A DNA stretch of 64,000 nt from Acetobacter aceti NBRC 14818. GTDB taxonomy: Bacteria; Pseudomonadota; Alphaproteobacteria; Acetobacterales; Acetobacteraceae. The stretch lies in contig NZ_AP023410.1 of assembly GCF_000193495.2 (NCBI RefSeq), positions 868,001 to 932,000 on the forward strand, written 5' to 3'. Positions 44,737-63,064 of the stretch are shown here, piece after piece. The notes under the pieces are model-generated. The model worked only from the letters and a program-made list of their open reading frames with translations, was not told where the DNA came from and made no database searches. The translations under genes and the position numbers were made by a program. Position 1 is the stretch's first letter; each line of letters starts with the position of its first letter.

Positions 44737-45061
44737 TCCCCTCCCCCCCGGCGCCGTCCCCGGCGAGATCCTGCCCAAAGCAGGCGACATCAAACTGAAC
44801 GAGGGCGCGAAGCGCGTCACGTTGCTGGTCACGAACACGGGTGATCGTCCGATTCAGGTCGGCAGCCACTATCATTTTGCTGAAACAAATCCGGCGCTGA
44901 AGTTCGACCGCGACAAGGCGCTCGGCTGGCGTCTGGACGTGCCGTCCGGTGGCGCACTGCGTTTCGAGCCGGGACAGGAACGCGAAGTCACACTCGTACC
45001 ATTCCGGGGCGCACGACGCGCGATTGGTTTCCGGGGCGACGTCATGGGGGAGATCGACTGA
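44720..45061 (+). CDS. ureB: Urease subunit beta
   Basis: A 113-residue beta subunit. Typical features are [35 protein letters not shown] and [18 protein letters not shown]. It overlaps ureA by 17 bp and ureC by one base, so the three structural subunits are translated as a coupled set. Confidence 0.96.
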
Positions 45062-46767
45062 TGGCAAGACTGAGCCGCTTTGACTACGCCATGACGTATG
45101 GGCCGACGACGGGCGACCGTCTGCGACTGGCCGACACGGCGCTGGTGGTCGAGATTGAAAAAGACTTCACCATCTACGGTGAGGAAGTGAAATTCGGTGG
45201 TGGCAAGACCATCCGCGACGGCATGGGTCAGTCCCAGCGCACGAACGCCGAAGGGGCTGTGGATACCGTCATCACCAATGCGGTGATCCTCGATCACTGG
45301 GGCATCGTGAAGGCCGATGTCGGGCTTGTTGGCGGGCGCATCCACGCCATCGGCAAGGCGGGCAATCCGGACGTGCAGCCCGGCGTGGACATCATCGTCG
45401 GTCCCGGCACGGAAGTCATTGCCGGTGAAGGCAAGATCCTGACGGCGGGCGGTATCGACAGTCACATCCATTACATCTGTCCGCAGCAGATTGAGGAGGC
45501 GCTGTCGTCCGGCATCACCACCATGCTCGGTGGCGGTACTGGTCCCGCAACCGGCACGGCGGCGACCACCTGCACGCCCGGTCCGTGGCACATGGCGCGG
45601 ATGCTTCAGGCGGCGGAAGGGCTTCCCGTCAATCTGGCCTTCGCGGGCAAGGGCAACGCCTCCCGCCCCGAGGCGCTGGAAGAAATGGTGCGTGCCGGGG
45701 CAAGCTGCCTGAAGCTGCATGAGGACTGGGGCTCTACTCCTGCCGCGATCGACTGTTGCCTGTCGGTCGCCGACCGCATGGACGTGCAGGTGATGATCCA
45801 CACCGACACGCTCAATGAAAGTGGTTTTGTCGAAGACACCATCGCCGCCTTCAAGGGGCGCACGATCCATGCCTTCCACACCGAGGGCGCGGGCGGTGGT
45901 CATGCCCCCGACATCATCCGCGTGGCGGGGCTGCCGAACGTCCTCCCCTCCTCCACCAATCCGACGCGGCCTTACACGATCAACACGCTGGACGAGCATC
46001 TCGACATGCTCATGGTGTGCCATCACCTGAATCCGAGCCTGCCGGAAGATATCGCCTTCGCGGAAAGCCGCATCCGTAGGGAAACCATTGCTGCCGAAGA
46101 CATCTTTCACGACATGGGCGTGTTGTCGATGATGTCCTCGGATAGTCAGGCGATGGGTCGTGTGGGGGAAGTTTCCATCCGCACATGGCAGACGGCGCAC
46201 AAGATGAAGCTCCAGCGCGGCGCGTTGCCGGGCGATGGCGATGCGGACAACAACCGCGCTAAACGCTACATCGCGAAATACACGATCAATCCGGCCATCT
46301 CGCATGGTCTGGCGCATGAGGTCGGTTCGGTCGAAGTCGGCAAACTGGCTGATCTCGTCCTGTGGGATCCGGCTTTCTTTGGCGTGAAACCTGATCTTGT
46401 CGTCAAGGGTGGTGCTATCGTCTACGCAATGATGGGTGACCCGAATGCCTCCATTCCCACCCCGCAGCCGGTGCATGGACGGATGATGTTCGGTGGGTTC
46501 GGCGGTTCTCTTGCTGCGACCTGCATGACCTTTGTGTCTCAGGCTGCGCTGGAAGATGACATCGGCCATAAGCTCGGTCTCAGACGACATCTGTCGGCTG
46601 TGTCGAACACCCGTGGCGGCATCGGCAAGCGGAGCATGATCCACAACGACGCAACCCCGGTGATCGAGGTTGATCCTGAAACCTATGAAGTGCGTGCCGA
46701 CGGTGTGCTTCTGACATGTGAACCTGCGGAGATCCTTCCCATGGCCCAGCGTTATTTTCTGTTCTGA
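45061..46767 (+). CDS. ureC: Urease subunit alpha (catalytic)
   Basis: A 568-residue catalytic subunit hydrolysing urea to ammonia and carbamate in the cytoplasm. The nickel ligands are in place: HIHYICPQQ, the carbamylated Lys in [12 protein letters not shown], His in [11 protein letters not shown] and [13 protein letters not shown], and the flap His in [13 protein letters not shown]. The Asp ligand lies in [14 protein letters not shown]. It starts one base into the ureB stop and ends one base before ureE. The gene is intact and of normal length. Confidence 0.97.
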
Positions 46768-47293: not shown

Positions 47294-47959
47294 ATGATGG
47301 ACGCCCTGCAACTCACCAGACTTCTCTCGTGGCTGTCACCGGCTTTTCCAACCGGCGGATTTGCTTACAGCCATGGTCTGGAATGGGCCATTGAGTGCGG
47401 CGATGTCACGGATGTGCCGTCTCTCGTCGAGTGGATCGGCAGCCTTCTGGCTCATGGCAGTCTGCACACCGACATGATCCTGCTGCGGGCGGCTTGGCGA
47501 GCGGACACGCTGGATGAAATGCGTGTCGTGGCTCAGGAAGGATGTGCTCTGGCGTCCTCGCGTGAGCGGTTTGAAGAAACCGTCAAACAGGGAAATGCTT
47601 TTTTACGGGCTGTGAAAATCTGGGACTGTCTTCCTCCCGCCGTCACGACGTTGACCGCCCAATGGCCCCTGCCGGTGATGTATGGCGTTGCACTGAAAGC
47701 CGCAGGATTTGACGAGGACGTGGCGGCTTTAGGGTGTGCACACGTCGCGGTTTCCGCCCTTGTCTCGGCGGCTGTGCGCCTGATCCCGCTTGGTCAGACA
47801 GACGGATTGCGGGCTCTTGCGGCGCTGGAAAAGCGCATGGCGGCGGCTGTTGCCACAACAAAATCCCTTACGCTGGAAGATGCTGGCGGACTCTGCTTCC
47901 GTTCCGATCTTGCCGCGATGCATCATGAAACTCAGGAAACGAGGTTGTTCAGAACATGA
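47294..47959 (+). CDS. ureF: Urease accessory protein UreF
   Basis: A 221-residue all-helical accessory protein, a GTPase-regulating partner of UreG. The family start [21 protein letters not shown] is clear (core [13 protein letters not shown]). Two ATGs are adjacent (47294, 47297). It overlaps ureG by 4 bp. Confidence 0.94.
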
Positions 47960-48591
47960 CAGAGAAACATCACGGACCCTTGCGCGTCGGTATCGGCGGT
48001 CCTGTCGGCACAGGCAAGACGGCGCTCATGGATGCGCTCTGCCGCCGCTTTCGCGATGAGTTCGATATCGCGGCGCTGACCAATGACATCTACACGCGCG
48101 AAGACGCGGAGTTTCTCACGCGCGCTGGGTCGCTGCCGCCGGAGCGTATCATGGGGATCGAGACGGGTGGTTGCCCGCACACGGCTATTCGTGAGGACGC
48201 CAGCATCAATCTTTCCGGTATTGACGAACTGAACGACAAGTTTCCAAATTTGGATATCGTGCTTGTCGAAAGTGGCGGCGACAATCTGGCCGCAACCTTC
48301 AGCCCAGAACTGGCAGACCTGACGATCTATGTGATCGACGTCTCAGCCGGGGACAAAATCCCCCGCAAAGGCGGCCCCGGCATCACGAAAAGCGATCTTC
48401 TGGTCATCAACAAGATTGATCTCGCCCCTTATGTCGGGGCGGACCTCTCTGTCATGGATCGGGACAGTAAGCGCATGCGTGGTGAAAGACCTTTTGTTTT
48501 CACGAATATTCGCAAGGGCGATGGGGTTGAAGAGATCGCCCGGTTCATTTGCGATAAAGGAGGCCTGTCTTCATCCAAAAAGAAATCATAA
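47956..48591 (+). CDS. ureG: Urease accessory GTPase UreG
   Basis: A 211-residue SIMIBI-class GTPase that powers nickel insertion. It has the P-loop [16 protein letters not shown], the nickel-binding CPH motif in [32 protein letters not shown] and the guanine motif NKIDLAP. It is the last gene of the urease operon. A palindromic stretch follows. Confidence 0.96.
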
Positions 48592-49373: not shown

Positions 49374-50576
49374 TCAGTACTGGAACTGCATGCCCAGAAG
49401 AAAAGCATTTGAGGTGCGGGTATTGGCAGGATGGTAACGCACATAATCGAACGTGAAACGAAGGTTATGACCATCCATCACGTAGTTGGCTCCAGCATCA
49501 AACTGGGTGGTTTTCGGATGCCCCGGACCATAAAGATCTCTTTTGAAACGGAACTGTTGGTAACGGACCAATGGCTGAAGACGACCCCACCCCAGTTTGT
49601 AGGGAATCAGATACGCCGTGCTGGCAAGAAAAGCAGTGCCATTATTGACGCCGCCGACATTTCCATATTCCGGCGCCCGCTGACCATATCCCGCAGCGAT
49701 ATCCTTCACGCCATCAGTATAATACTGGTAATACGCGCCTTCCAGAGTATAGACACCTGACTCAGCGTTCTTTCCGATCTTCTTTTCAAAAAGACCGTCA
49801 ATATTCCAGGCTTTGTAATCACCCTTCTGCTCAGCGCTACCGACACCATCGACTTCATACTGTCCGGCCAGACCGATTGCGAGAATATCAGCCTTACCGT
49901 AGTAGGTGCTGGCGGTGTAATAGGCCGGAGATGGCTCTGGATCGAGAAAATTGTATTCCATACGACCAGCAAACATAGGATGTTCACCGTAGTTCGATCC
50001 ACCATGTACCCAGTTATGCCCTCGATAAATACCAAGAGTATAACGGAACCGGTCTTTCAGGGTTTTCCCCCAGACCGTAACACCGTCATCACGGCCCGAC
50101 CAGGCCCCTGGATACTGGGAAACAATCGGGTAGGCATATGTGCTCAGGAAGTAAGGACCATCAAGGTTGGAACGGTCACTTCCCGGCAGCATACGACCAA
50201 ACCAGACATTGAATTCTTTCCACGGCTCCACCTGAAGGATACCATCGAGCACGTTCCAGTTGCCATCTCTCAGCCGTTCAAGATTGAGGGTCGTCTTGAC
50301 GTATTTATGGAACTGCGCACCCATGTAAATACGCAGATCGCTTGCGCTCGCGGCACTGGAATTACTTGGTGTCGCTCCGGGGTCCTGGGTAAGATACTGC
50401 GCTCTCACACCAACACCGAATGTAAAGTACTGGTTTTTTCCGAAATTGACTGTCATGGCAGCCTGTGACTGTTCAGGCGCCATCACTCCCAACGCTGCAA
50501 AAGCTGACAAAATGCTTCCACAACGTAGCAATTTCTTTTTTCGGTCCGAAGAAAACCGTGACACTCGCGCAATCAT
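49374..50576 (-). CDS. Outer-membrane porin-like protein
   Basis: A 400-residue protein with a signal peptide (Lys-rich RKKKLL, then a hydrophobic stretch to SQAA) and a mature sequence of amphipathic beta strands rich in Tyr and Gly. It ends in aromatic NAFLLGMQFQY, as outer-membrane barrels do for BAM recognition. Segments such as VWFGRMLPGSDRSNLDGP and MEYNFLDPEPSPAYYT fit phosphate-selective or alphaproteobacterial porins of about 16 strands. The ATG at 50576 is preceded by GAGGGGG. Solute unknown. Confidence 0.8.
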   Translation of the reverse strand: MIARVSRFSSDRKKKLLRCGSILSAFAALGVMAPEQSQAAMTVNFGKNQYFTFGVGVRAQYLTQDPGATPSNSSAASASDLRIYMGAQFHKYVKTTLNLERLRDGNWNVLDGILQVEPWKEFNVWFGRMLPGSDRSNLDGPYFLSTYAYPIVSQYPGAWSGRDDGVTVWGKTLKDRFRYTLGIYRGHNWVHGGSNYGEHPMFAGRMEYNFLDPEPSPAYYTASTYYGKADILAIGLAGQYEVDGVGSAEQKGDYKAWNIDGLFEKKIGKNAESGVYTLEGAYYQYYTDGVKDIAAGYGQRAPEYGNVGGVNNGTAFLASTAYLIPYKLGWGRLQPLVRYQQFRFKRDLYGPGHPKTTQFDAGANYVMDGHNLRFTFDYVRYHPANTRTSNAFLLGMQFQY

Positions 50577-50914
50577 GAACACCCCCTCTTATGGCCACAG
50601 CCATCACCCGGCGACCTGATTACGTTACGGCAACGTATCGTATGAGCGGAATGCGTAAAATTACCTATATGTAAGACCACCGCAAACCGGAGAAACAGTC
50701 GGGAAACACTTCACAGACAATCACGGCAGAACAACACCCTGATTATAAAAAGATATTTTTATAATCAGGGTGTTCAAAAGGATTTTTTATAGACAAAATA
50801 CCGATTGAAAGTTTCGAAGGATTTTTGAGAACCATAATCTCAACAAGAACAATCAACTACGAAAATTCGAAATATCGTTCTTCCTGAAACAGTTTTCAAA
50901 TTCAGAATCAATCC
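50577..50914. other. Porin upstream region
   Basis: About 340 bp without a gene between the stop of the LysR gene and the porin start, both on the minus strand. It should contain the porin promoter. It includes the small inverted repeat ACGTT-ACGGC-AACGT near 50620-50640 and a long perfect palindrome listed separately. The right part (50775-50914) is AT-rich. Confidence 0.5.
50733..50774 (-). terminator. Perfect 19-bp palindrome, probable terminator of the LysR gene
   Basis: AACACCCTGATTATAAAAA is repeated inverted after a 4-base loop with no mismatch. The inner end of the stem is all A and T. It lies 140 bp beyond the stop of the LysR gene and about 160 bp before the porin start, so it could insulate the porin gene. 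It lacks a separate T-run after the stem, so an operator or a transposon scar is an alternative. Confidence 0.5.
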
Positions 50915-51814
50915 TTACCCATCAGAAACAATAAAGACACTTTTCTCCTGGGATATTCTCTCCCTCAACCAGAGAGCTGCTGGACCGTGCACCTTTTTCT
51001 TATGCCATACGATCGACAAGGGAACCTCGTGATGACCGGCATCAAACAACAGTTCAGGCACCACAATGTGCGAAGCCACCGGCGAAGACGCCAGAACATG
51101 ATCTGAAATGAAAGCCCATCCTACCCCGTGTTTGACCATTTCCAGAATGAGCCAGTTACTTTCAACCCACCAGACTTCAGCTGCTATACGCAGGCTTTCC
51201 CTTTTCTGCTTCTTGCCTCGGGACGCCACCAAAATCTGGCGATAACGTTTCAGTTCTTCCCAAGCCACAGGCTGCATTGCCAGTGGATGGTCTCGGCCAC
51301 AGACCAGCCGAAGCGGCACACGTCCTATCGTCCGAAAAGCAAGATCAACCGGAGGTGTCGTCTGCTGCCACATCACGCCGAGATCCGCCGTCCCGGCCAG
51401 CACCATGTGGCCAACATCTTCCATCAGCGGTAACAGCAGTTCCAGTTCGACATGCGGAAAACAGGCTGCAAAATCCTGAAAAATGGAACCAAGCGCATTT
51501 TCCGGATACAGTTCGTCAACAGCAACGACCAGGCGGTTTTCCACACCTTCTTCCAGAGAGCGAGCCACGCCGACCAGATGCTCCCGCCGATCCAGAACGA
51601 CGCGCGTTTCTTCCAGCAGTCTCTGACCTGCCGGTGTCAGAACGGGCACACGCCCTTCACGACTGAACAGTAACACTCCGAGGTCATCTTCCAGATTGCT
51701 GATATGCGTGCTGATCGCTGACTGCGCCTTGCCGGTCCTGCGTGCCGCCGCAGAAAAGGAACCGGCTAATGCGGCTTCCACGAAAGCCTCCAGTTGCTCA
51801 AAAGAGATACTCAT
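50915..51814 (-). CDS. LysR family transcriptional regulator
   Basis: A 299-residue regulator. The winged HTH at the N-terminus shows EQLEAFVEAALAGSFSAAARR and AQSAISTHISNLEDDLGVLLF (parts of the standard LysR fold), followed by a linker helix and a periplasmic-binding-like effector domain. It is divergent from a PACE family exporter with a 66-bp gap; LysR/PACE pairs are known from AceR-AceI of Acinetobacter, where the regulator activates the exporter gene. That is the likely role here; the effector is unknown. Confidence 0.88.
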   Translation of the reverse strand: MSISFEQLEAFVEAALAGSFSAAARRTGKAQSAISTHISNLEDDLGVLLFSREGRVPVLTPAGQRLLEETRVVLDRREHLVGVARSLEEGVENRLVVAVDELYPENALGSIFQDFAACFPHVELELLLPLMEDVGHMVLAGTADLGVMWQQTTPPVDLAFRTIGRVPLRLVCGRDHPLAMQPVAWEELKRYRQILVASRGKKQKRESLRIAAEVWWVESNWLILEMVKHGVGWAFISDHVLASSPVASHIVVPELLFDAGHHEVPLSIVWHKKKVHGPAALWLRERISQEKSVFIVSDG

Positions 51815-51880
51815 TGACCTATCTTTAAAACAGATTGATTCTAACTTTTTCCATCTAAAAATCCGTGTAGATTGCCGCGC

Positions 51881-52363
51881 ATGTCAACCGAATCCACTCA
51901 ATCTTCCCCAGCCATGCGTTCCGGTGCCGATCGCCTCCGTCATATGGTGCTCTTCGAATGTCTTGCGCTGGCTATTGTTATACCGTGCGGCAGCATGCTG
52001 TTTGGCGTGCAGGGTTCAGACATGAGCGCCATCGGCGTCGGCTGCGCTATTACTGCGTCGCTATGGAATTATGGATACAATCTATTTTTCGACCGCATTA
52101 TGCGCCACCTGACAGGCTCGACCCGAAAGAGCATCCCCGTGCGACTGCTGCACACGCTCCTGTTTGAAATAGGATTACAGCTCGTACTGTTGCCCGCAAT
52201 TGCGCTCTATCTCGGTATCTCGCTCATGCAGGCCTTTTCACTCAACATGGCGATTGCGCTCTTTTATCTGGCCTATACGTTTCTGTTCAACATAGCCTAT
52301 GACTCGATCTTTCCGGCGGGAGGCGTTGCCGCGAAATCATCTCCGACCGTCACGGCCGAATAA
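51881..52363 (+). CDS. PACE family efflux protein (AceI-like)
   Basis: A 160-residue inner-membrane protein with four helices in two tandem bacterial transmembrane pair domains. Signatures are DRLRHMVLFECLALAIVIP (helix 1, with the conserved Glu) and LWNYGYNLFFDR between the repeats; the second repeat has RLLHTLLFEIGLQL and AYTFLFNIAYDSIFP. PACE proteins export chlorhexidine, acriflavine and short diamines such as cadaverine and putrescine. A diamine link to the ureohydrolase, which could make putrescine, is possible but only inference. Confidence 0.88.
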   Translation: MSTESTQSSPAMRSGADRLRHMVLFECLALAIVIPCGSMLFGVQGSDMSAIGVGCAITASLWNYGYNLFFDRIMRHLTGSTRKSIPVRLLHTLLFEIGLQLVLLPAIALYLGISLMQAFSLNMAIALFYLAYTFLFNIAYDSIFPAGGVAAKSSPTVTAE

Positions 52364-52419: not shown

Positions 52420-53016
52420 TCACATATGACTGGACGTTTTCTTCGTCTCATCTTCCGCGCTGCCTGTGTCCACAGCCGGAACCAGATCAGAATGATGGAG
52501 AAACCGCGACACAGTCGGCGCTGATCCCCGGACATCAGGGGCAGCACTACCCTGCATGCATCCCGCCTGGCTCCCCGTGTCGGAAACATGCACGACCGGA
52601 GCAGCCTGTCCGTTCTGACTCATCGTGACTGTCTTGGAACAGGCCGCGCCATTCCCGCTCCAGCTCACGCTGGTAATGGACTGGTAAGAAGACCCACCCA
52701 TCATGCCGGCTGCTGGCGCTGCTATAGCTGGCGTATGCTGGGCGACCTCAATCATCCGCTGCTCAGCCTTCTGCATCATCGCCATCTGCTGCGCCATCAT
52801 GCGGTCCATATTCTCAAAGAGAGACTGCATGGGCACGACATTGACAGGCTGAGCAGCAGGCGCACGGATCAGCACACCGATCTGATGACCCTGAGTATCG
52901 ACTACGCGGATCAGTTCCTGCGCCATTGCCTGTGGCGAAAGCGATACTGTCGCCACACCGGCAACCAGAGTAACCGCTGAAAGTTTGCCCAGAAAAGACT
53001 GTCTGAAGAAACGCAT
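52420..53016 (-). CDS. Hypothetical secreted Met/Gln-rich protein
   Basis: A 198-residue protein with a signal peptide ending in AMAQ. The middle contains a Met-rich helix (ENMDRMMAQQMAMMQKAEQRM). After this come AGMMGGSSYQSITSVSWSGNG and two cysteines (AACSKTV, AGCMQG). ATG 53016 is chosen because GGAGGG lies eight bases upstream; the frame is open farther but without secretory character. I recognise no domain. Met-rich periplasmic helices sometimes bind copper or act as coiled-coil chaperones; that is only a suggestion. Confidence 0.6.
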   Translation of the reverse strand: MRFFRQSFLGKLSAVTLVAGVATVSLSPQAMAQELIRVVDTQGHQIGVLIRAPAAQPVNVVPMQSLFENMDRMMAQQMAMMQKAEQRMIEVAQHTPAIAAPAAGMMGGSSYQSITSVSWSGNGAACSKTVTMSQNGQAAPVVHVSDTGSQAGCMQGSAAPDVRGSAPTVSRFLHHSDLVPAVDTGSAEDETKKTSSHM

Positions 53017-53143
53017 CACCAAACCCTCCATCAGGAAAATCTGTCTCTCGTTTCGTGGCCCGAAAACAGTTACCAATCTGTTTACGCGGCCATCAGAAAT
53101 CAAGGGTTTTTGCTTCCAAAAACTGAAACCCTGATCCGCAACC

Positions 53144-53839
53144 TCAGATCGCCACCAGCCCCCGGATCTCCTCAGCTTCCAGTGTCTCGACAGCCCCGTT
53201 GGCAACAACCTTGCCACGGTCAAGAACAACCACATCCTGCGCCAACTCATAGGCGAAATCGAAATACTGCTCGACCAGCAGAATCGCCATATCGCCACGA
53301 TCCCGCAGCATGCCGATCACCGAACCAATATCCTTGATGATGCTCGGCTGAATACCTTCGGTCGGCTCATCCAGCACCAGCAGACGCGGACGAATCACGA
53401 GCGCACGACCGATCGCAAGCTGCTGCTGCTGCCCACCTGAAAGATCGCCGCCACGACGGTCCCGCATCTTCGCCAGAATGGGAAAGAGATCATAGATCTC
53501 GTCCGACACTTTCCGCTGACCACGCGGCAGAAGACCAAAGCCGGTCTCCAGATTTTCCTTCACTGTCAGCAGCGGAAAGATGTCACGTCCCTGCGGCACC
53601 GTAGCGATGCCGCGTCGCGCCCGCTCATAGGCAGGCAGGCGCGTGATATCCTCCCCTTCCCACATGATCTTGCCGGACGAGACGGCGTGCATCCCCGTGA
53701 CCGCGCGCAGAACGCTGGTCTTGCCGACACCATTGCGGCCCAGCAGGCACGTCACGGCACCAGCGCGCGCAGAGAGGGACACGCCGCGCAGGGCAATCGC
53801 CGCGCCGTAATAAAGTTGAATGTCCTGAACGTCGAGCAT
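53144..53839 (-). CDS. urtE: Urea ABC transporter ATP-binding subunit UrtE
   Basis: A 231-residue ABC ATPase of the LivF type: Walker A LLGRNGVGKTSVLRAV, signature LSGGQQQQLAIGRAL, Walker B LLVLDEPTEGIQPS. The phrase DEPTEGIQPSI with Gln is typical of UrtE compared with LivF. It is the last gene of urtABCDE, 12 bp after urtD. Confidence 0.92.
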   Translation of the reverse strand: MLDVQDIQLYYGAAIALRGVSLSARAGAVTCLLGRNGVGKTSVLRAVTGMHAVSSGKIMWEGEDITRLPAYERARRGIATVPQGRDIFPLLTVKENLETGFGLLPRGQRKVSDEIYDLFPILAKMRDRRGGDLSGGQQQQLAIGRALVIRPRLLVLDEPTEGIQPSIIKDIGSVIGMLRDRGDMAILLVEQYFDFAYELAQDVVVLDRGKVVANGAVETLEAEEIRGLVAI

Positions 53840-53851
53840 CTGTCTGTTTCC

Positions 53852-54592
53852 TCAGCGTCCGAGATACACTTCGATCACACGCGGATCGTTGCTCACCTGA
53901 TCCAGCCCGCCCTCCGCGAGAACCGAACCTTCGTGCAGCACGGTGACTTTCACATCCAGCGCCCGCACGAACTCCATGTCATGCTCCACAACAACTACAC
54001 TGCGTGTCTGGTTGATCTCACGGAGAAGATCAGCCGTCTCCATGGTCTCCGCGTCCGTCATACCCGCCACAGGTTCATCGACCAGCAGCAGGTCCGGCTC
54101 CTGACCGAGCAGCATTCCGATTTCCAGCCATTGTTTCTGACCATGACTCAATCCACCAGCCTGCCGGGATGCCTCACGGCCCAGACGGATTGTGCACAGC
54201 AGGCCATCGATCCGGACTTTTTCTTCCGCCGTTTCTTTTGCGAAAAGCAAAGCGAAAGGAGAACGCAATCCTTTCAGCGACAGCAGAAGATTATCGCGAA
54301 CGGTCAGTTCCTCGAACACCGTAGGTTTCTGGAACTTGCGACCAATCCCCATGCGGGCGATGGCCGGTTCATCCAGCTTCGTCAGATCATGCTCGCGGAA
54401 TTTGACCACGCCTGTATCAGGGCGCGTCTTGCCGGTGATGATGTCCATCATCGTGGTCTTGCCAGCACCGTTCGGTCCGATAATGGCCCGCATTTCACCG
54501 GGAGCCAGCGACAGCGAGAGGTCATTGATCGCCCGGAAACCGTCGAACGTGACGGAGACATGGCTCAACTCAAGCAGGGTTCCAGCGCTCAT
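53852..54592 (-). CDS. urtD: Urea ABC transporter ATP-binding subunit UrtD
   Basis: A 246-residue LivG-type ATPase with IIGPNGAGKTTMMDIITG, the variant signature LSHGQKQWLEIGM characteristic of UrtD, and Walker B LLLVDEPVAGMTDAE. It overlaps urtC by 4 bp. Confidence 0.93.
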   Translation of the reverse strand: MSAGTLLELSHVSVTFDGFRAINDLSLSLAPGEMRAIIGPNGAGKTTMMDIITGKTRPDTGVVKFREHDLTKLDEPAIARMGIGRKFQKPTVFEELTVRDNLLLSLKGLRSPFALLFAKETAEEKVRIDGLLCTIRLGREASRQAGGLSHGQKQWLEIGMLLGQEPDLLLVDEPVAGMTDAETMETADLLREINQTRSVVVVEHDMEFVRALDVKVTVLHEGSVLAEGGLDQVSNDPRVIEVYLGR

Positions 54593-55713
54593 GCCTCGCC
54601 TCCTTCCGGATTGGTCACTTCAGGCGTTACTTCGGAAGGCCGTTTTTCTGGCAGGTGACGCATCAGTCCCATCAGTCCCTGCGGGAGAAACAGCGTTGTC
54701 GCCATGAACAATGCGCCAAGACCATAGAGCCACATTTCCGGCAGCCAGGCGGTGAACAGTGTCTTGCCAAGATTGACGAGGATCGCGCCTATGACAGCGC
54801 CGGACAGCGTGCCACGTCCACCAACCGCCACCCAGATCACCGCTTCGATGGAGTTGGCGGGCGCAAACTCGCCGGGATTGATGATGCCGACCTGAATGAC
54901 ATAGAGCGCGCCACCGATCGCCGCGATTACAGCGGAGAACACCCAGACCAGCAGCTTGACCTGCTCGGGACGATAGCCAAGGAACCGCGTGCGACTTTCC
55001 GCATCACGCACGGCAATCAGCAGACTTCCGAACCGGCCTCCAACCACATACCGCGCCGCCAGCAACGCCCCTGCAAGAATGAGGCCGCTGATAAACAGCA
55101 TCCCGGCGCGGGTGTAAGGGCTGTGCAGGTCAAAACCGAGAATGTCCTTGAAATCGGTCAGACCGTTGTTGCCGCCAAACCCGAAGCCATTCTGGAAGAA
55201 AGCCAGCATCAGTGCGTAGGTCAGCGCCTGCGTGATGATCGACAGATACACGCCCGAGACGCGGGAGCGGAACGCCAGCCAGCCGAACAGTCCCGCCAAA
55301 CCGGCAGGCACGACCAGCATCAGCAGCAGCGCCACAGGAAAATGGTCAGAACCCCACCAGTACCAGGGAAGGCTTTTCCATGACAGGAAGACCATGAAAT
55401 CCGGCAGATCGGCATTGCCGTAAACACCGCGCGCACCGATTTCCCGCACGAGATACATGCCCATCGCATAACCGCCGAGCGCGAAGAAGGCTGCATGCCC
55501 AAGCGTGAGGATTCCGGCAAAACCCCAGACCAGATCAACAGCGAGCGCCAGCATGGCATAGGCCAGATACTTGCCGGCGAGCGTCATGATGAACGGTGAC
55601 ACCTGCACCGGGCTGGACGCGGGCAGCAGACTGCCCACTGCCAGCACGCCCGTCAGCAGGACAACGATGACCGCCGTGACGGACGCGCCACGAAATGAGA
55701 GGGATGCGTTCAC
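54589..55713 (-). CDS. urtC: Urea ABC transporter permease UrtC
   Basis: A 374-residue LivM-type permease with about ten helices. Features include YLAYAMLALAVDLVWGFAGILTLGHAAFFALGG (core VWGFAGILTLGHAAFFALGG), MVFLSWKSLPWYWWG, NGLTDFKDILGF and AVIWVAVGGRGTLSGAVIGA. The extra loop after helix 3 with MYLVREIG is typical of UrtC. It overlaps urtB and urtD by 4 bp each. Confidence 0.93.
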   Translation of the reverse strand: MNASLSFRGASVTAVIVVLLTGVLAVGSLLPASSPVQVSPFIMTLAGKYLAYAMLALAVDLVWGFAGILTLGHAAFFALGGYAMGMYLVREIGARGVYGNADLPDFMVFLSWKSLPWYWWGSDHFPVALLLMLVVPAGLAGLFGWLAFRSRVSGVYLSIITQALTYALMLAFFQNGFGFGGNNGLTDFKDILGFDLHSPYTRAGMLFISGLILAGALLAARYVVGGRFGSLLIAVRDAESRTRFLGYRPEQVKLLVWVFSAVIAAIGGALYVIQVGIINPGEFAPANSIEAVIWVAVGGRGTLSGAVIGAILVNLGKTLFTAWLPEMWLYGLGALFMATTLFLPQGLMGLMRHLPEKRPSEVTPEVTNPEGGEA

Positions 55714-57368
55714 GATTCCACTCCCCGGCCCCGCAGCGGGAACATGCCGCGCGGATGACGCTGAATGTAGAGAATGACAAGAACGAGCAGCAGGATCTTG
55801 CCCGACACGGCCCCGACCAGCGGCTCAAGCGCCTTGCCGCCGACACCGAGCGTAGCCGCCGCAGCCAGCGTGCCCCACAGATTGCCCACACCGCCGAACA
55901 CGACGACGAGAAAGCTGTCGATAATATAGCTCTGCCCCAGATTGGGGCTGACATTGTCGATCTGACTGACCGCGACCCCCGCCAGTCCGGCGATACCGGA
56001 GCCAAGGCCGAAGGTCAGCGCATCGACCCGCGCCGTGCGGATGCCCATCAGCGCCGCCATGCGCCGGTTCTGGGTCACGGCCCGCATTTCCAGACCAAGA
56101 GGCGTGCGACGCAGCACCAGCATCAGTCCCGCCATGACCACGCCTGCAAAGATCATGATGGCCAAACGATCAATCGTGACCTCGATGCCGCCGAGATGAA
56201 AGGAGCCGGACAGCCACGGTGGCGTGATGACCGCCACATTCGTCGGGCCAAACAGGGAGCGGATGACCTGCTGGAGAATGAGAGATAGCCCCCACGTCGC
56301 CAGAAGCGTTTCAAGCGGACGACCATACAGGAACCGGATCAGTCCGCGTTCAATGACGATCCCCAGTGCTCCACACACCAGAAAGGCAGCAGGAATAGCA
56401 AGGATCAGACTGAACGACCCCAGAGCAGGCGCAACGGAAAACACGGCTTTCTGGGTCAGCCACGTCGTGTAAGCACCGATCATCATCAGTTCGCCGTGGG
56501 CCATGTTGATCACGCCCATGACGCCGAAGGTGATGGCCAGCCCCATGGCGGCCAGCAGTAGCACGGAACCAAGACTCAGCCCGTAAAACGCATCCTGTCC
56601 GAAACCCCAGAGTTTCAGCTTGAAATCGATGGAAGAGACAGCCGCTTCAGCAGCCTTACGTGTCGTCGGGTCCAGAGTCTCCGAAGTGGATGCCTGAGCC
56701 AGCACGCCGCGTGCATCCAGTCCTCCAGCGGCCTTGAGTTTTGCCACAGCCTGCTGCTGAGCCTGCGCATCGGACGCCGGAGCACCGGGGCTGAGCAGCG
56801 CCGCCGCACGGGCGTTGAGCAACGTGTCTTTCAGGGCGGCGTCATCGGTTTTTGACAACGCCTTGTCGATGGCGGGCAGCATGGCCGGATCGTGGCGCTG
56901 ATAGAATACGTTTGCGGAAGCCTGCCGCTCCGCAGGCGTGCCGGAGACCAGTTCCAGCTCAGCCTCGGCTGCTACAACAGCAAGCCTGACACGGTTATTG
57001 ACCCGGACAGGGCGCAGGTTTTCCTCATCAGGCGTGACGGTCGCACCGGACCGGGCATCCTCCCACCCACTGTCAGTGCGGATGAACAGACCGTCGCCCT
57101 CGCGAGCGGCAAAAAGTTTCCTGTCGGCCAGAGCGCGCAGAACAGGGAGAGCCCGAGGCCCTCCCTGCTGCGCAATCTGATCGACTGATGAAGCGATGGT
57201 ATTGAACTGCGTTGTCGCAAGTCCGGCGAACGCATCTTCATCCGCCCGTGCATGCTGGGGCTGAATGAAAAGCAGACTCAGCAGGACGACGGCGAAGATA
57301 CCCCGCACACCGTTCCGCATTTTCCGGCCTGAAAGGGCTGCCGGACCCGACATCGCAACGTCAGCCAT
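55710..57368 (-). CDS. urtB: Urea ABC transporter permease UrtB
   Basis: A 552-residue protein. A signal-like first helix is followed by a soluble helical region of about 220 residues (with RALADRKLFAAREGDGLF), then a LivH-type permease with LAITFGVMGVINMAHGELMM and TQNRRMAALMGI. The long N-terminal extracytoplasmic domain is normal for UrtB and distinguishes it from branched-chain amino-acid permeases. It starts 8 bp inside the urtA stop end. Confidence 0.93.
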   Translation of the reverse strand: MADVAMSGPAALSGRKMRNGVRGIFAVVLLSLLFIQPQHARADEDAFAGLATTQFNTIASSVDQIAQQGGPRALPVLRALADRKLFAAREGDGLFIRTDSGWEDARSGATVTPDEENLRPVRVNNRVRLAVVAAEAELELVSGTPAERQASANVFYQRHDPAMLPAIDKALSKTDDAALKDTLLNARAAALLSPGAPASDAQAQQQAVAKLKAAGGLDARGVLAQASTSETLDPTTRKAAEAAVSSIDFKLKLWGFGQDAFYGLSLGSVLLLAAMGLAITFGVMGVINMAHGELMMIGAYTTWLTQKAVFSVAPALGSFSLILAIPAAFLVCGALGIVIERGLIRFLYGRPLETLLATWGLSLILQQVIRSLFGPTNVAVITPPWLSGSFHLGGIEVTIDRLAIMIFAGVVMAGLMLVLRRTPLGLEMRAVTQNRRMAALMGIRTARVDALTFGLGSGIAGLAGVAVSQIDNVSPNLGQSYIIDSFLVVVFGGVGNLWGTLAAAATLGVGGKALEPLVGAVSGKILLLVLVILYIQRHPRGMFPLRGRGVES

Positions 57369-58689
57369 GCTTTGCTCCGAGACAGGCCTTTTTGACCGTA
57401 TCGTAATTTCCGCAATTGATGGGCTTGGTCCAGTCGCCGATCAGGTTCTTCGTCTCGGCCACATAAGGCGACCAGGCCATGCCCGGCACTTCCTTGGGTG
57501 TCTGCCAGACGACGTTGAACTGCCCGTCATCCTGAATCTCGCCGATATAGACTGGCTTGGTGATGTGATGGTTCGGAAGAACCTGCGCCGTGCCGCCCGT
57601 CAGATTGGGCTGTTTGAGACCGACCATCGCTTCGATGACCTTGTCATGGTCTGTGGAACCAACCTTCTCGACCGCCTGAACCCACAGATTGAAGCCGATA
57701 TAGGACGCTTCCATCGGATCGTTGGTCGTACGCTTCGGATTCTTCGTGTAGGTATGCCACTCCTTGATGAAGGACTTGTTGGCAGGGCTGTCGATGCTCT
57801 CGAAGTAGTTCCAGGCGGCGAGCTGACCAACGAGCGGCTTGGTGTCCATACCGGCGAGCTCTTCCTCACCGACACTGAAGGCCATGACGGGAATATCTGT
57901 GGCGGAGATGCCCTGCGCGCCCAGTTCCTTGTAGAACGGGACATTGGCGTCACCATTGATGGTGGACACAACAGCCGTTTTCTTGCCTGCTGAACCAAAG
58001 GCCTTGAGCTGCGACACGATGGTCTGCCAGTCGGACTGACCGAACGGCGTGTAGTTCACCATGATGTCGGCGTCTGCGATGCCTTTGGATTTCAGGTAGT
58101 TCTGAAGGATCTGGTTCGTCGTGCGCGGATAGACATAATCCGTGCCGATCAGTGCAAAACGCTTCGCTCCGCCGCCGTCGGCGCTGAGCAGATAATCGAC
58201 CGCCGGGATGGCCTGCTGGTTAGGGGCCGCGCCCGTGTAGAAGACGTTGCGGCTGCACTCCTGTCCCTCATACTGCACGGGATAGAACAGGATGCCGTTG
58301 AGTTCCTCGAACACCGGCAATACGGACTTGCGGGACACGCTGGTCCAGCAACCGAACACGGACGCCACCTTGTCTACGGCGAGAAGCTGACGGGCCTTCT
58401 CGGCGAACAGCGGCCAGTTGGAAGCGGGATCGACCACGACAGCTTCCAGAGGACGCCCCAGCACGCCGCCTTTACGATTCTGCAATTCGACCAGCATCAG
58501 GATGACGTCTTTCAGCGTGGTTTCGCTGATGGCCATGGTGCCCGACAGGGAATGCAGCACACCGATGCGGATCGGCTCGCCTTTGGGCGCTGCTGCGGCA
58601 GCCCCTTTCACACCGGCAAGCATCGCTGCGGATGCGGCGAGACTGAATTTCGTAAAATCACGGCGGGAGAAACGCGGCGACATCGTCAT
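57361..58689 (-). CDS. urtA: Urea ABC transporter substrate-binding protein UrtA
   Basis: A 442-residue periplasmic binding protein with a twin-arginine signal (SRRDFTKFS) and Ala-rich hydrophobic stretch. UrtA hallmarks include IRIGVLHSLSGTMAISET, GRPLEAVVVDPASNWPLFAE, VFGCWTSVSRKSVLPVFEE, LNGILFYPVQYEGQE and NVFYTGAAPNQQ. It leads urtABCDE. ATG 58689 has AAGGAC upstream; the 95-bp gap to the divergent kinase gene holds a palindrome. Confidence 0.95.
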   Translation of the reverse strand: MTMSPRFSRRDFTKFSLAASAAMLAGVKGAAAAAPKGEPIRIGVLHSLSGTMAISETTLKDVILMLVELQNRKGGVLGRPLEAVVVDPASNWPLFAEKARQLLAVDKVASVFGCWTSVSRKSVLPVFEELNGILFYPVQYEGQECSRNVFYTGAAPNQQAIPAVDYLLSADGGGAKRFALIGTDYVYPRTTNQILQNYLKSKGIADADIMVNYTPFGQSDWQTIVSQLKAFGSAGKKTAVVSTINGDANVPFYKELGAQGISATDIPVMAFSVGEEELAGMDTKPLVGQLAAWNYFESIDSPANKSFIKEWHTYTKNPKRTTNDPMEASYIGFNLWVQAVEKVGSTDHDKVIEAMVGLKQPNLTGGTAQVLPNHHITKPVYIGEIQDDGQFNVVWQTPKEVPGMAWSPYVAETKNLIGDWTKPINCGNYDTVKKACLGAKHG

Positions 58690-58744
58690 GGCCTCTGTCC
58701 TTCTGATACTGACATGAGCATCCCCACCGGGGCAGATTTTCCCA

Positions 58745-58760
58745 TACGCAAACTTGCGTA
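58745..58760. promoter_or_regulatory. Palindrome TACGCAA-AC-TTGCGTA, candidate operator
   Basis: A perfect 7-bp inverted repeat with a 2-bp centre lies 55 bp upstream of urtA and 25 bp upstream of the kinase gene. Its size suits a LuxR/NarL-type dimer, and such a regulator is encoded by the second gene of the kinase unit. Binding is inferred. Confidence 0.5.
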
Positions 58761-58784
58761 GTTCATTACGATGTCGCATCTGGC

Positions 58785-61700
58785 ATGAGGGATGCAAAGG
58801 AAAACACAGATGCAGGAGCGGTTGTCCGGGTGCCCAGGCGTGTTGCCATGAGGCCATTGCGCATCGTGCGTATGCGCCGCGACTACAATCGCTGGGCGGC
58901 CGACCAGTCGCTCGAGGATTACGCCCTGCGCTTTACGGCCCGCTCAGCCCGGGCCGCAACGCCTTTGCGAGCGGCACTGACGGCTCTAGGCTCCATTTCC
59001 TTTCTCGCGCTTGAGGCGATCGGCGGCACGCTGACAATGGCTTTCGGTTTCACCAACACGGCCCTTGCCATCGCTTTCGTCAGTGTTGTGATCTTTCTGG
59101 TGAGCCTGCCCATCTGCGCCACGGCTGCCCGCAGCGGTCTCGACATCGACCTGCTCACACGCGGCACGGGGTTCGGCTATATTGGCTCAACCCTGACCTC
59201 GCTGATCTATGCCAGCTTCACCTTTATCTTTTTCGGGATCGAGGCCGCCATTCTGGCCGCGTTGCTGGAGCAAATTCCTGGGATTTCCCACACCATTGCG
59301 TGCTGTCTGGCAGCCCTGCTTGTCATTCCACTGGTCACTGGCGGGTTCCGGTTTATCGCACGATTCCAGATCTTTTCTCTCCCCATCTGGTTCGCGCTCA
59401 ACCTCATTCCCCTGATCGCCATTCTCTACGCTCACCCAAACTGGATCGGCGACTGGGTGCAGTTCAAGGGACTGGCCTCAACCCAGCCCGTAAACATCTT
59501 CGCCATTGGTAGTGCAGCGTCCATCATGTTCGTGCTGATCTGTCAGAGCGCGGAACAGGTGGATTTTCTGAGGTTCATGCCTTCCCTGACACGCACCAAC
59601 CGGGTGAGATGGTGGTGCGCGCTGATTGCCGGAGGACCGGGCTGGATTGTGTTTGATGCGGCCAAGCTTTTCGCTGGATCGTTTCTGGCGTGGGCGGTCC
59701 TGAATGCCGGCTTTTCACCAGACCGTGCCGTGCAGCCCCAGCAGATGTACAGGCTGGCCTACGGCACATTCCTGTCGCCTGCGTTCGCGACACTTGCCAC
59801 TGCGGCTCTGGTCATCGTCGCCCAGTTCAAGATCAACATCACCAACGCCTATGCAGGCTCCCTCGCCTGGTCGAATTTCTTTTCCCGATTGACGCACTCC
59901 CATCCGGGACGGGTGTTCTATGTCCTGTTCACGGTAGCGCTTGCCCTTCTTCTTATGCTCGCCGGTCTGGTCAGCACCATTGAGACGGGCATCGTCCTGT
60001 ATGCTGATCTTGCCGCCGCATGGGTCGGCCCCATCCTCGCGGATATCGTGCTGTGCAAACCTCTCAAGCTCAGTCCACCCTTTGTCGAATTCAAACGCGC
60101 GCTCCTGCCGGACATCAATCCCGTAGGGCTGGGTGCGGCGTTCACAGGCGCTGTGACGGGCATTCTCTGCACTGACGGCTATTTCGGCCCCTATGCCTCG
60201 GCGTTTTCGCCGTTCATCGCGCTGGGACTCTCGTTTCTGGTGACGCCCCTTCTGGCGGCGCTGACAGGCGGGCGAACCTATCTCGCACGACGGGCACCCG
60301 CAGACTGGAACACACGCGGTTCCATGAAATGCGTGATCTGCGAACACACCTTTGAAGCTACCGACATGGCCAGTTGTCCTGCCTATGGCGGAACCATCTG
60401 CTCACTCTGCTGCTCGCTGGACGCCCGCTGCAATGATCGCTGCAAACCTGCTATCACGCATCTAAGGCAACAGTTCAGTCTGCCTTTCGATCTCCTCCCG
60501 CAAAAACTCAAAAGCTTTCTTTTATCGACAAAGGGCCGTTTTCTCCTTTTTTCCGGTCTTGGCACCGCGGCGATGCTGCTGATCGGCGATAGCGCGCTGG
60601 CCCATCATCATGCCTACCTGGTGCTGTTTCTTCTTGTCGTTCTGACATCCTGGCTTGTCGTGCTTGGGCAGGATGGACGACAAGCTGCGGGAGAAGAAAC
60701 ACGCCGACAAACCCTCCTTCTGATGAACGAAATCCGTGCCCACCAGCGGACAGACGCCGCCCTGAAACGGGCACGGGAAAAGGCTGAGGCCGCCAGTCTG
60801 GCAAAAACCCGTTATCTGAGCGGCATCAGTCACGAAATCAGAGCGCCCCTGAACACCATCATGGGTTACACCCAGATTCTCCAGAACGATCATCGTATTC
60901 CCGCAGATCGGCAGGATGTTCTGCGCACCATTCGGGAAAGTGGTGAGCATATGACCGGACTTCTGACCGGACTTCTCGATATTTCCAAAATCGAGGCCGG
61001 TCGGATCGAGCTCTACAGCGACAGGATCGCTCTCGGTCAGTTCCTCAACACCGTTGTGCAGATGGTCCGCCCGCAGGCACGAGCCAAACGACTGGATTTC
61101 CATTATCATCCTGGATACCTGCCGCCCGTCGTGATGGGAGATGAGCACCGCCTCCGTCAGATCCTACTTAACCTGTTGTCCAATGCCGTGAAATTTACTC
61201 CATCCGGCTCAGTGACGTTCACGGCGAACTGGCGCGGCCAGATTGCCGAATTCATCATCGAAGATACCGGACCGGGCATTGCTCTTGCCGATCAGGAACG
61301 GATTTTCGAACCATTCGAAAGAGCGGCCGGAGACGCTGTCCCCGGCACAGGTCTGGGGCTGACAATCACGCGCCTCCTCACTCATATTCTGGGAGGAGAA
61401 CTCACTCTGGCGAGTGAGGTCGGACATGGAACACGCTTCCGGGTGCGCCTGCTCCTGTCCGACCGTGCCGAAAATGCAACCCCCGTCCTTCAGGGACTTC
61501 CCTCGGGCTATGACGGCGCCAGAAAAACCATACTGGTGGTCGACGACAATGCCGCTCATCGACGTATGATGCATGAATTTCTGGGGTCCAGACATTTCAA
61601 TATCCACGATGTCTCTGGCGGTGTTGAATGTCTTGAATTTCTGAAAACAGAACTTCCTGACCTGATCATTCTCGATCTCTCCATGCCGGGCATGGATGGA

Positions 61701-62180
61701 CGGGAACTGGCGCTGCGCATTCGGGAAACCAGTGCAGGCCATCTCCCCCTGCTCTTTCTCACCGGCAACGTGACTGAACTGGCAGCGCGTCGTGTTCCTT
61801 CACTGGATGACTGTACAGTGCTGCCAAAACCCGTCGATTTTCAGGTCCTTCTCGATGAAATCGGGCGACTTCTGGATCTGCAATGGGTGTTTTCATCTGA
61901 CGATGAAGCGCTCCAGACACTAGCTTCAGAGCAGGAGACGACACGAACACCGGACAACATCAAACTCGACCTTTCATCGAATATCTCTTTGACAGAAAAT
62001 GAGAAAACAGACCTTCTCGAACTGATCAACTCCGGAAACGTCCGTCTTTTACGACAAAAACTTGATCTTCTCTGTAACAGTTATCCTCATCTTGTCATGA
62101 CTCTTGACCCCATTAAGCAAGCAGCCCGCACCTATCAACTCGAAACAGTCAGACGTTTGCTGGAGGAACTGCCCGCATGA
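58785..62180 (+). CDS. Hybrid histidine kinase with NCS1 permease-like sensor domain
   Basis: A 1131-residue membrane protein. Residues about 30-500 are a 12-helix NCS1 (purine/cytosine permease)-like domain (RRDYNRWAADQSLEDYALRFT region, GFGYIGSTLTSLIYASFTF, SQVKIN-like AQFKINITNAYAG). A Cys cluster at 516-553 (CVICEHTF, CPAYGG, CSLCCSLDARCNDRC) could bind a metal. Then come two helices, a coiled coil, HisKA with His683 (SHEIRAPLN), an ATPase (NLLSNAVKFT, GTGLGLTI), a receiver with Asp964 (ILDLSMPGMDG) and a C-terminal helical tail. ATG 58785 lacks a clear ribosome site; ATG 58848 is an alternative. Divergent from urtA, so it may sense urea or a related nitrogen compound. It overlaps the regulator gene by 4 bp. 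Confidence 0.85.
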   Translation: MRDAKENTDAGAVVRVPRRVAMRPLRIVRMRRDYNRWAADQSLEDYALRFTARSARAATPLRAALTALGSISFLALEAIGGTLTMAFGFTNTALAIAFVSVVIFLVSLPICATAARSGLDIDLLTRGTGFGYIGSTLTSLIYASFTFIFFGIEAAILAALLEQIPGISHTIACCLAALLVIPLVTGGFRFIARFQIFSLPIWFALNLIPLIAILYAHPNWIGDWVQFKGLASTQPVNIFAIGSAASIMFVLICQSAEQVDFLRFMPSLTRTNRVRWWCALIAGGPGWIVFDAAKLFAGSFLAWAVLNAGFSPDRAVQPQQMYRLAYGTFLSPAFATLATAALVIVAQFKINITNAYAGSLAWSNFFSRLTHSHPGRVFYVLFTVALALLLMLAGLVSTIETGIVLYADLAAAWVGPILADIVLCKPLKLSPPFVEFKRALLPDINPVGLGAAFTGAVTGILCTDGYFGPYASAFSPFIALGLSFLVTPLLAALTGGRTYLARRAPADWNTRGSMKCVICEHTFEATDMASCPAYGGTICSLCCSLDARCNDRCKPAITHLRQQFSLPFDLLPQKLKSFLLSTKGRFLLFSGLGTAAMLLIGDSALAHHHAYLVLFLLVVLTSWLVVLGQDGRQAAGEETRRQTLLLMNEIRAHQRTDAALKRAREKAEAASLAKTRYLSGISHEIRAPLNTIMGYTQILQNDHRIPADRQDVLRTIRESGEHMTGLLTGLLDISKIEAGRIELYSDRIALGQFLNTVVQMVRPQARAKRLDFHYHPGYLPPVVMGDEHRLRQILLNLLSNAVKFTPSGSVTFTANWRGQIAEFIIEDTGPGIALADQERIFEPFERAAGDAVPGTGLGLTITRLLTHILGGELTLASEVGHGTRFRVRLLLSDRAENATPVLQGLPSGYDGARKTILVVDDNAAHRRMMHEFLGSRHFNIHDVSGGVECLEFLKTELPDLIILDLSMPGMDGRELALRIRETSAGHLPLLFLTGNVTELAARRVPSLDDCTVLPKPVDFQVLLDEIGRLLDLQWVFSSDDEALQTLASEQETTRTPDNIKLDLSSNISLTENEKTDLLELINSGNVRLLRQKLDLLCNSYPHLVMTLDPIKQAARTYQLETVRRLLEELPA

Positions 62181-63064
62181 CACGTGAGACACCCTCCCGT
62201 TCCACCCTGCTTGTAATTGATGATGATCCAGCCGCCCTTGGCATGATGGACGAGGCACTGACAAATGCCGGTTACTCGGTTCTGCTGGCGCAATCTGGTG
62301 ACAGCGCCTTTGAAGTCATGAACCGGACCCTGCCTGATCTCGTGCTGGTCGATGCGATCATGCCGGGACTGAGCGGCTGGGATATCTGCCGCAGCATGAA
62401 GGCGGATGCCACGCTCAACGCTCTACCCGTCATCTTCATGACCGGTCTGACGGAAATCGAGCATGTCCTGCGGGCGTTCGAAGCTGGGGCCACAGACTAT
62501 GTGACCAAACCATTCCACTTCGCCGAAGTTCTGGCCCGTATCGAAATTCACCTGATCGCCGCACGTCGTATCCGAACGGCTCATGCAGCCTTGGACAGCG
62601 TCGGCAGACGCTTCTTCGCCCTTGATGACAACGGTGAACTGCTGTGGTCCACTCCAAAAGCCGCCGAGTTTCTGGCGCAACTCCCTTCGCCCGAGCATTT
62701 TTCCAAATTCGTCATGAAAAAATCGGAACCGGGACAGGTCATTTTCACTACCCCTCATCAGAATGGTGTTCTGCGCGTCACTTTTATCGGACGGGACGGC
62801 CCTCAGGAATGGCTGTTCTCCATCGCGTTTCAACTGGATCGTCCCGAACAGATTCTACAGGAAAAATTCGGTCTTAGCGCACGGGAAGCAGAAGTTCTTC
62901 TGTGGATCAGCCGGGGAAAAAGCAGTCGCGATATTGCTGAAATCCTCAGCATCAGTCCGCGCACAATCGATAAGCACACCGAGCAGCTTTATAACAAGGC
63001 CGGTTTCAGCGGGCGTGCGGCCGCAGCGGCGGCGGCTTCACGACTGTTGGGGGATATAGAATAA
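62177..63064 (+). CDS. LuxR-type response regulator
   Basis: A 295-residue regulator. The receiver domain (1-125) has IDDD at the acidic pocket, phospho-Asp59 (LVLVDAIMPG) and Lys in VTKPFHF. A middle PAS-like region of about 100 residues is followed by a LuxR HTH (SAREAEVLLWISRGKSSRDIAEI, with ISPRTIDKHTEQLYNKAGF). It is translationally coupled to the kinase gene by ATGA. The likely target is the urtA/kinase intergenic palindrome, and perhaps urease. Confidence 0.88.
   Translation: MTRETPSRSTLLVIDDDPAALGMMDEALTNAGYSVLLAQSGDSAFEVMNRTLPDLVLVDAIMPGLSGWDICRSMKADATLNALPVIFMTGLTEIEHVLRAFEAGATDYVTKPFHFAEVLARIEIHLIAARRIRTAHAALDSVGRRFFALDDNGELLWSTPKAAEFLAQLPSPEHFSKFVMKKSEPGQVIFTTPHQNGVLRVTFIGRDGPQEWLFSIAFQLDRPEQILQEKFGLSAREAEVLLWISRGKSSRDIAEILSISPRTIDKHTEQLYNKAGFSGRAAAAAAASRLLGDIE

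Follow-up and report, generated by a model that had tools for sequence, protein, structure and literature searches.

What a histidine kinase with a transporter-like membrane domain does next to a urea importer is the question posed by a stretch of 64,000 nucleotides from Acetobacter aceti NBRC 14818 (contig NZ_AP023410.1, positions 868,001 to 932,000 of the forward strand; the whole stretch is called the window here, and positions count from its first letter). On its minus strand the window carries urtABCDE (53144-58689), and across a gap of 95 bp a permease-like hybrid histidine kinase (HK) and a LuxR-type response regulator (RR) are encoded divergently. This arrangement, first noted in a preliminary description of the locus, is real as judged by NCBIfam and Pfam matches and by the start positions. 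The pair probably constitutes a two-component system for urea uptake, in which the NCS1-like kinase and its RR would switch on urtABCDE via a predicted operator at 58745-58760.

All five window subunits surpass the curated NCBIfam cut-offs for the UrtABCDE importer. These are the substrate-binding protein of the ATP-binding cassette (ABC) transporter, UrtA (57361-58689; TIGR03407, 549 bits, cut-off 493), the permeases UrtB (55710-57368; TIGR03409, 397 bits, the match covering residues 259-548 of 552, behind a long N-terminal extension) and UrtC (54589-55713; TIGR03408, 414 bits), and the ATPases UrtD (53852-54592; TIGR03411, 380 bits) and UrtE (53144-53839; TIGR03410, 333 bits), all on the minus strand. 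Relatives of the window UrtA include AmiC and urea-binding UrtA proteins of solved structure. With the urtA start set at 58689 by the motif MTMSPRF and the kinase open reading frame (ORF) starting at 58785, a gap of 95 bp is most likely; conservation among the HKs begins only at residue ~31, so the true kinase start may lie later.

On the plus strand, the 1131-residue HK (58785-62180) combines a long hydrophobic N-terminus, recognised by hydropathy, with HisKA (PF00512, residues 673-739), HATPase_c (PF02518, 785-891) and receiver (PF00072, 916-1026) domains, which together span 60801-61862. The RR gene (62177-63064, plus strand), whose start overlaps the HK stop, encodes a LuxR/NarL-type protein with a receiver (PF00072) and a GerE/LuxR helix-turn-helix domain (PF00196). 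Assigned from the domains, His683 would be the phosphoacceptor of the HK and Asp964 that of its receiver; both are invariant in 105/105 aligned HKs. Between the membrane domain and the kinase core lie a block of eight cysteines (C516, 519, 531, 539, 542, 543, 549 and 553, within residues 516-554; 60330-60446), likewise invariant in 105/105 aligned HKs and a putative metal site, and two hydrophobic segments (residues 586-632; 60540-60680), which stand out by hydropathy and are modelled as helices, with low confidence there.

If the kinase serves urea uptake, it should travel with urt genes, and co-occurrence had indeed been proposed as a test. In a survey of 385 genomes of the class, 27 matched the sensor domain; we dropped G138 (E 3.5e-6, no kinase relative) and kept G326, where the gene is in pieces, leaving 26/385, the window's genome included. 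UrtA scores above its cut-off in 25/26 genomes with the HK versus 63/359 without it (Fisher p 1e-16), an association clearly beyond chance. FmdA at 583 bits or more, a threshold placed at a gap in the scores (the next being 380), is found in 16/26 versus 4/359 (Fisher p 3e-18); both Fisher tables were counted by hand from the match lists. The family is large: a scan of named genomes gave at least 588 confirmed relatives, and 527 plasmid records in PLSDB carry one, 342 of them from Klebsiella. The nearest named relative among the matches listed is that of Acetobacter conturbans, with 83% identity over the sensor domain.

For comparative analysis we used 106 loci, that is, 108 stretches minus L060, where the kinase gene is fragmented, and L061, which holds no relative. 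The 80 loci from named genomes are the best 80 of at least 588 matches, hence those most like the window rather than a random draw; Bradyrhizobium is over-represented, and related loci are not independent. Two of the stretches, L064 and L070, have identical sensor domains and lie in opposite orientation about 140 kb apart on one contig of Acetobacter estunensis AV380, which may reflect either a recent duplication or an assembly artefact.

According to the UrtA nearest to the kinase, these loci fall into two types: 22 are U-type, with UrtA 69-100% identical to that of the window, 75 are amide-type (A-type), with UrtA 72-100% identical to that of locus L107, and nine have none in reach; across types, identity is 37-44%. 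The types differ in their catabolic genes. FmdA is encoded in 64/75 A-type versus 0/22 U-type loci and an AmiE/AmiF-type amidase in 29/75 versus 1/22, whereas UreC occurs in 0/75 A-type versus 13/22 U-type loci, and UreC or allophanate hydrolase in 15/22 U-type stretches, the window's own urease being uncounted in both figures, as it lies outside the stretch taken for its locus. On a quick tree of the sensor domains, the two classes must have interchanged four times or more. Both types of transporter, one of each, occur in the window's genome: a second HK-RR pair (C1:2308689, locus L036) has an A-type Urt-like transporter opposite and an AmiF-type formamidase (NF009803, 603 bits against a cut-off of 406) next to it.

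Further evidence connecting the kinase-RR pair to these transporters lies in the intergenic region. The urtA-HK gap of the window holds the inverted repeat TACGCA-AACT-TGCGTA (58745-58760), which scores 22.2 with our position weight matrix (PWM), is conserved in relatives and is the only perfect TACG-N8-CGTA in the 64 kb window. This pattern is present in 63/85 HK-transporter gaps (53/74 A-type, 10/11 U-type), compared with 0.15 expected from shuffles, and any arm spacing other than 8 is found in 0-1 gaps; 85 of 94 divergent gaps satisfied the coordinate rules, and the nine left out all hold a perfect site. In HK-urtA gaps the operator spans alpha-, beta- and gammaproteobacteria, and a perfect copy lies within 700 bp upstream of the conserved HK start in 76/106 loci. 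One stretch from a Klebsiella plasmid, L152, has a set of urt genes, a formamidase and, between HK and urtA, a perfect operator.

Across the 2.1 Mb of the loci, the PWM at a threshold of 12 gives 123 matches, of which 100 are upstream of the HK (in 93/106 loci), 21 are near other urea or amide genes and only two are elsewhere, one of these 243 bp from a urtA start. As the PWM was trained on HK-upstream sites, only the 23 matches elsewhere are independent of the training. The "near" zones amount to 4.4% of bases in the loci; the true starts being unsure, they were set to run from -300 bp (-80 bp for four clusters) to +350 bp relative to the start of the longest ORF. The 21 matches comprise nine at fmdA, five at porin genes, two each at allophanate hydrolase and ureD, and one each at amiF, ureAB and ureF; scores are low, at 12-16, for the ureD sites and for two of those at porin genes, and the ureF site (L074), which lies inside the preceding ORF, was rejected as a promoter site while still counted among the 21.

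Genomes without the kinase provide a control. A perfect operator is present in 0/20 urtA or fmdA upstream regions of HK-less genomes, a set made up of the four that have FmdA and 16 of the 63 whose UrtA exceeds the cut-off, taken from the tops of the lists (one stretch, L176, ends at a contig end). Four genomes have the HK apart from its likely operon. In three, all of one genus, HK and amide operon are on separate contigs and the site is present at the operon each time (3/3); it is absent in the fourth, G051, described below. Two further linked gaps were viewed, one without the site (G340, L171) and one with it (G246, L172).

The operator also changes together with the regulator. No other single RR residue predicts the inner operator bases as well as residue 265 of the recognition helix (RT[IV]-D/N-KH): none of the 74 half-sites paired with Asp265 reads TC, as opposed to 55 of the 78 paired with Asn265. 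Both combinations exist side by side in the window's genome, where the window RR (RR1) has Asp265 and TACGCA, and the second (RR2) has Asn265 and TACGTC; the RR2-type site recurs 93 bp upstream of the amiF of this genome. Such covariation is what direct RR binding and insulated sister systems would give. Because of the operator distribution, the controls and this covariation, the RR very probably binds the predicted operator in the urtA-HK gap and controls urt, so that the control of urt by the kinase pair, suggested in the preliminary description, is now well supported. An incidental neighbourhood, with the RR controlling other genes, would be in keeping with three operator matches by unrelated genes in the window's own genome, but in the light of the operator, covariation and co-occurrence statistics it is hardly credible.

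It could be argued that the kinase does not bind urea at all, and instead monitors cell nitrogen or the state of UrtBCDE, much as PhoR reads the Pst state, with the permease-like domain as a docking or relay module. The tight pairing of the two genes would suit such a mechanism: among 97 loci with an assigned UrtA, the HK and the UrtA closest to it are encoded on opposite strands in 94 (75/75 A-type, 19/22 U-type), with starts within 700 bp of each other in 86. We nevertheless regard it as unlikely, considering that the three same-genus genomes mentioned above keep the operator at the amide operon with the HK on another contig, that the HK of Bradyrhizobium locus L078 is divergent from an amidase gene in a 22 kb stretch without urt genes, and that predicted pocket-helix residues are strongly conserved among the HKs. 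About 20 kb around the kinase yielded no urt gene in L050, L053 and L054 (three genomes of one genus, one a Tistrella); an operator-like site lies upstream, and each stretch holds another kinase match a few kb off.

The preferred reading, direct sensing by the kinase, depends on the nature of its membrane domain (residues 31-500; 58875-60284). HK residues 1-500 match no Pfam family at E<=10, the NCS1 family PF02133 matches 0/26 relatives at this threshold, and comparison with the PDB by sequence gave nothing meaningful. As a PF02133 search of the window's genome failed to recover the HK domain, we turned to fold and profile comparison. An AlphaFold2 model based on a 26-row alignment (predicted local distance difference test 75.7, predicted template modelling score 0.78) has Mhp1 and CodB at Foldseek ranks 1-5 (E 2e-9 to 2e-7), ahead of SLC5-type entries (NIS, sialic acid, DUR3), of which the plant urea transporter DUR3 holds rank 11. 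Aligned by hhalign to a profile of six NCS1 transporters of the same genome, the sensor-domain profile reaches an E of 1.4e-6 and a probability of 90.5%. The original label of an NCS1 permease-like N-terminus is thus upheld by predicted fold and profile comparison, not by Pfam.

What, then, does this domain bind? Given the neighbouring gene context, urea is the most likely ligand of the window HK, and short amides are most likely for its A-type sister systems. The preliminary description had also allowed for a nitrogenous base, and a domain that responds to a nucleobase, a hydantoin or a compound like allantoin, at a point of purine breakdown that precedes urea, would agree with a fold nearest to Mhp1 and CodB. 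It would agree, too, with the annotation of a stand-alone Streptomyces permease (L151:9926-11605; 39% identical to the sensor domain, no Pfam match) as "allantoin permease", possibly a surviving transporter relative. The residues of the predicted site speak another language. HK residues 149 and 153 align with Mhp1 Trp117 and Gln121, both of which contact the ligand, W117 by stacking on it (PMC4195764). The stacking position is mostly Trp across NCS1 (PMC9379551), but Phe or Leu in the HKs, making a nucleobase less likely; position 153 is Glu in 105/105. Furthermore, the neighbours are urea and amide genes, and among 17 recurrent neighbour clusters, whose representatives were judged by eye, we recognised no purine-breakdown gene. 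Of the two ligands initially considered, urea stands as plausible, and a base of this kind appears quite improbable.

Transmembrane helix 3 (TM3) may also hold a trace of ligand preference. The pair 149/151 is Phe and Ala in 75/75 A-type HKs and differs in 21/22 U-type HKs, representing 3/4 U lineages. No single residue, nor any pair with 97% or more conservation among A-type HKs, splits the 22 U-type from the 75 A-type kinases; once L059 is set aside, 149/151 is the only such close pair. As a ligand-site signature it is a post hoc candidate, not proof. Position 249 was dropped as a second marker, since A-type HKs also vary there.

Could the kinase still import urea or an amide while signalling? 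HK Lys349 (K in 104/105, R in one) falls on the position of Mhp1 Ser312, which presumably binds Na+; this is an ungapped reading by eye, as the TM8 stretch of the profile alignment is poor. A lysine here would argue against Na+-coupled transport. In CodB, TM8 carries a Thr pair (PMC9379551). A transceptor has a precedent in CbrA, whose SLC5 domain is reported to come with both transport and kinase activities (PMC7096432, PMC13022988); with Lys349 at this position and a dedicated ABC importer adjoining the kinase, we consider the same for the window HK doubtful, and favour a domain that senses without transporting.

Several observations weigh against the reading of an NCS1-derived urea sensor acting through this operator. 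Concerning the ligand, an amide-type transporter is present in 75/106 loci; profile evidence for the NCS1 label is only moderate; and the nearest stand-alone relative seen, the Streptomyces permease, does not adjoin urea or amide genes. U-type L059 retains the A-type TM3 signature, no residue pair was found that separates all four U lineages from A-type HKs, and 149/151 was picked post hoc, 13/400 random A-clade triples yielding such a pair (for larger triples, 0/200). Concerning the operator, 13/106 loci have no PWM site upstream of the HK, and the U-type stretches L039, L040 and L049 have none at all. The kinase of G051 (L051) has the U-type TM3 residues Leu149 and Ser151, yet its stretch contains no urt gene and no operator was found; it lies about 60 kb from the only UrtA above the cut-off listed, and the site is at neither. 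Including G051, the other urtA genes of HK-positive genomes have a perfect site in 0/15 cases (one has a single-mismatch copy), indicating that some urt operons lie outside its control. Five loci break the Asp/Asn265 rule, and independent tree pairs average 3.6 for, 0 contrary and 1.4 undecided, for which the sign test is not significant. Finally, 3/6 strong operator matches in the window's genome lie in unrelated places (C1:9666, 1581680 and 1858009), which we take to be the interior of a miaB-like ORF, the region ahead of an integrase-like ORF and the gap between rpsM- and rpsK-like ORFs; we judged these three to be background, the pattern read backwards giving two matches.

Within the window, the second-best site is a weak operator-like sequence at 50650-50669 (PWM 15.3-15.6, the lowest perfect site scoring 17.2), about 78 bp upstream of a porin-like gene (49374-50582, minus strand) that shares a neighbour cluster with urt-adjoining porins of relatives; its product scores under the NCBIfam porin_ExtI cut-off and has no Pfam match. 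The third-best, at 18533 (PWM 13.4), upstream of a ClpA/ClpB-type ATPase gene, was judged background. Urease genes, context for urea transport by UrtABCDE, lie on the plus strand of the same 64 kb: ureD (43536-44366; PF01774), ureC for the alpha subunit (45061-46767; TIGR01792, 970 bits), ureF (47294-47959; PF01730) and ureG (47956-48591; TIGR00101, 342 bits). The suggestion that the kinase might also control urease is not supported in the window, where neither the pattern nor the PWM detects an operator near this cluster, although Asaia carries a perfect site at a distance of 88 bp upstream of ureAB, and in two loci one precedes allophanate hydrolase. Between porin and urt genes, a LysR regulator (50915-51814, minus strand; AceR is nearest, at a score far under the AceR cut-off) is divergent from a PACE-type efflux transporter gene (51872-52363, plus strand), and a 292-residue ORF without Pfam or NCBIfam match (52420-53298, minus strand) overlaps the urtE end.

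Gene anatomy, predicted fold, the associations with two catabolic gene sets, the operator and its covariation with the RR were computed; the ligand, activation rather than repression, the signal path and the loss of transport are what we infer. In the mechanism that we propose, the transporter-derived, NCS1-like membrane domain of the kinase would bind urea or a close analogue, and its movement would reach the kinase core by way of the eight-cysteine block and the two additional helices. Phosphate would pass to the LuxR-type RR, which would bind TACGCA-N4-TGCGTA at 58745-58760 and switch on urtABCDE, activation being suggested by analogy with CrbR. The RR would probably also act on its own HK-RR operon and, weakly, on the porin gene. 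Sister systems in which the transporter is of the amide type and formamidase or amidase genes accompany it would most likely sense short amides.

More tentatively, and with the odds somewhat against so inclusive a picture, all these features might be read jointly as one family, apparently undescribed and spread across the Proteobacteria, whose NCS1-derived kinases sense urea and short amides. It would have switched between amide and urea at least four times, in three lineages with changes of TM3 149/151 beside the ancestral substrate-stacking residue; an Asp/Asn code in the RR would set TACGCA or TACGTC, letting two sister systems run in one cell, as in the window's genome, and the eight-cysteine block would add a metal or redox input. 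In databases, the members seen go by "ATP-binding protein", "hybrid sensor histidine kinase", ArcB-like and similar names only. For this large and vaguely named family, with at least 588 relatives and 527 plasmid records, what was a vague "hybrid kinase near urt" can now be tested directly by way of its operator, its RR code and its ligand-site signature.

How does this system compare with known ones? To our knowledge, sensing of urea or formamide on behalf of these uptake operons has not been demonstrated for any two-component system. The U-type transporter is UrtABCDE by all five NCBIfam models, and gene context suggests that it transports urea. An A-type set beside formamidase and amidase was proposed in 2010 as an amide carrier in B. 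japonicum (PMC3098086), Urt-like genes with fmdA have been noted (PMC13209695), and a genome paper places a LuxR two-component pair next to a urt operon, to which one of its figure legends adds a hybrid HK (PMC13296017); in the accessible parts of these three papers we found no link of a urt or amide importer to an NCS1-like kinase. Our literature search, in which subscription journals were thinly covered, found no description of an NCS1-type histidine kinase, its operator or RR code, and in the accessible part of a review containing both terms (PMC8399564) NCS1 appears only in a reference title. AmiC (1pea), a distant relative of UrtA, stems from an amidase operon. In the AmiC/AmiR system AmiC itself is the sensor, while the sensor here is a membrane kinase.

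With Mhp1 and CodB the sensor domain shares a predicted LeuT-like NCS1 fold, from which it is set apart by its fusion to a kinase, by escaping PF02133 and, relative to Mhp1, by Phe/Leu at Trp117, Glu at Gln121 and, by eye, Lys at Ser312. The closest counterparts in design are the SLC5/STAC kinases CbrA, CrbS and RpuS, in which a histidine kinase likewise follows a transporter-like N-terminal membrane domain in one protein; CrbS is of the hybrid type, and CrbR, its LuxR-family RR, works via an imperfect inverted repeat (PMC5715377, PMC9100948). In contrast to these, the window HK has an NCS1-like rather than an SLC5 fold, and carries the eight-cysteine block and two helices where they have STAC, a region in which we found no confident Pfam domain, with no search aimed at STAC itself; its operator TACG-N8-CGTA and its urea and amide genes are further distinctions. 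The family described here is a new one within a known kind, that of transporter-domain kinases such as CbrA and CrbS, and offers a second fold class, besides SLC5, for studying the evolution of transporters into sensors.

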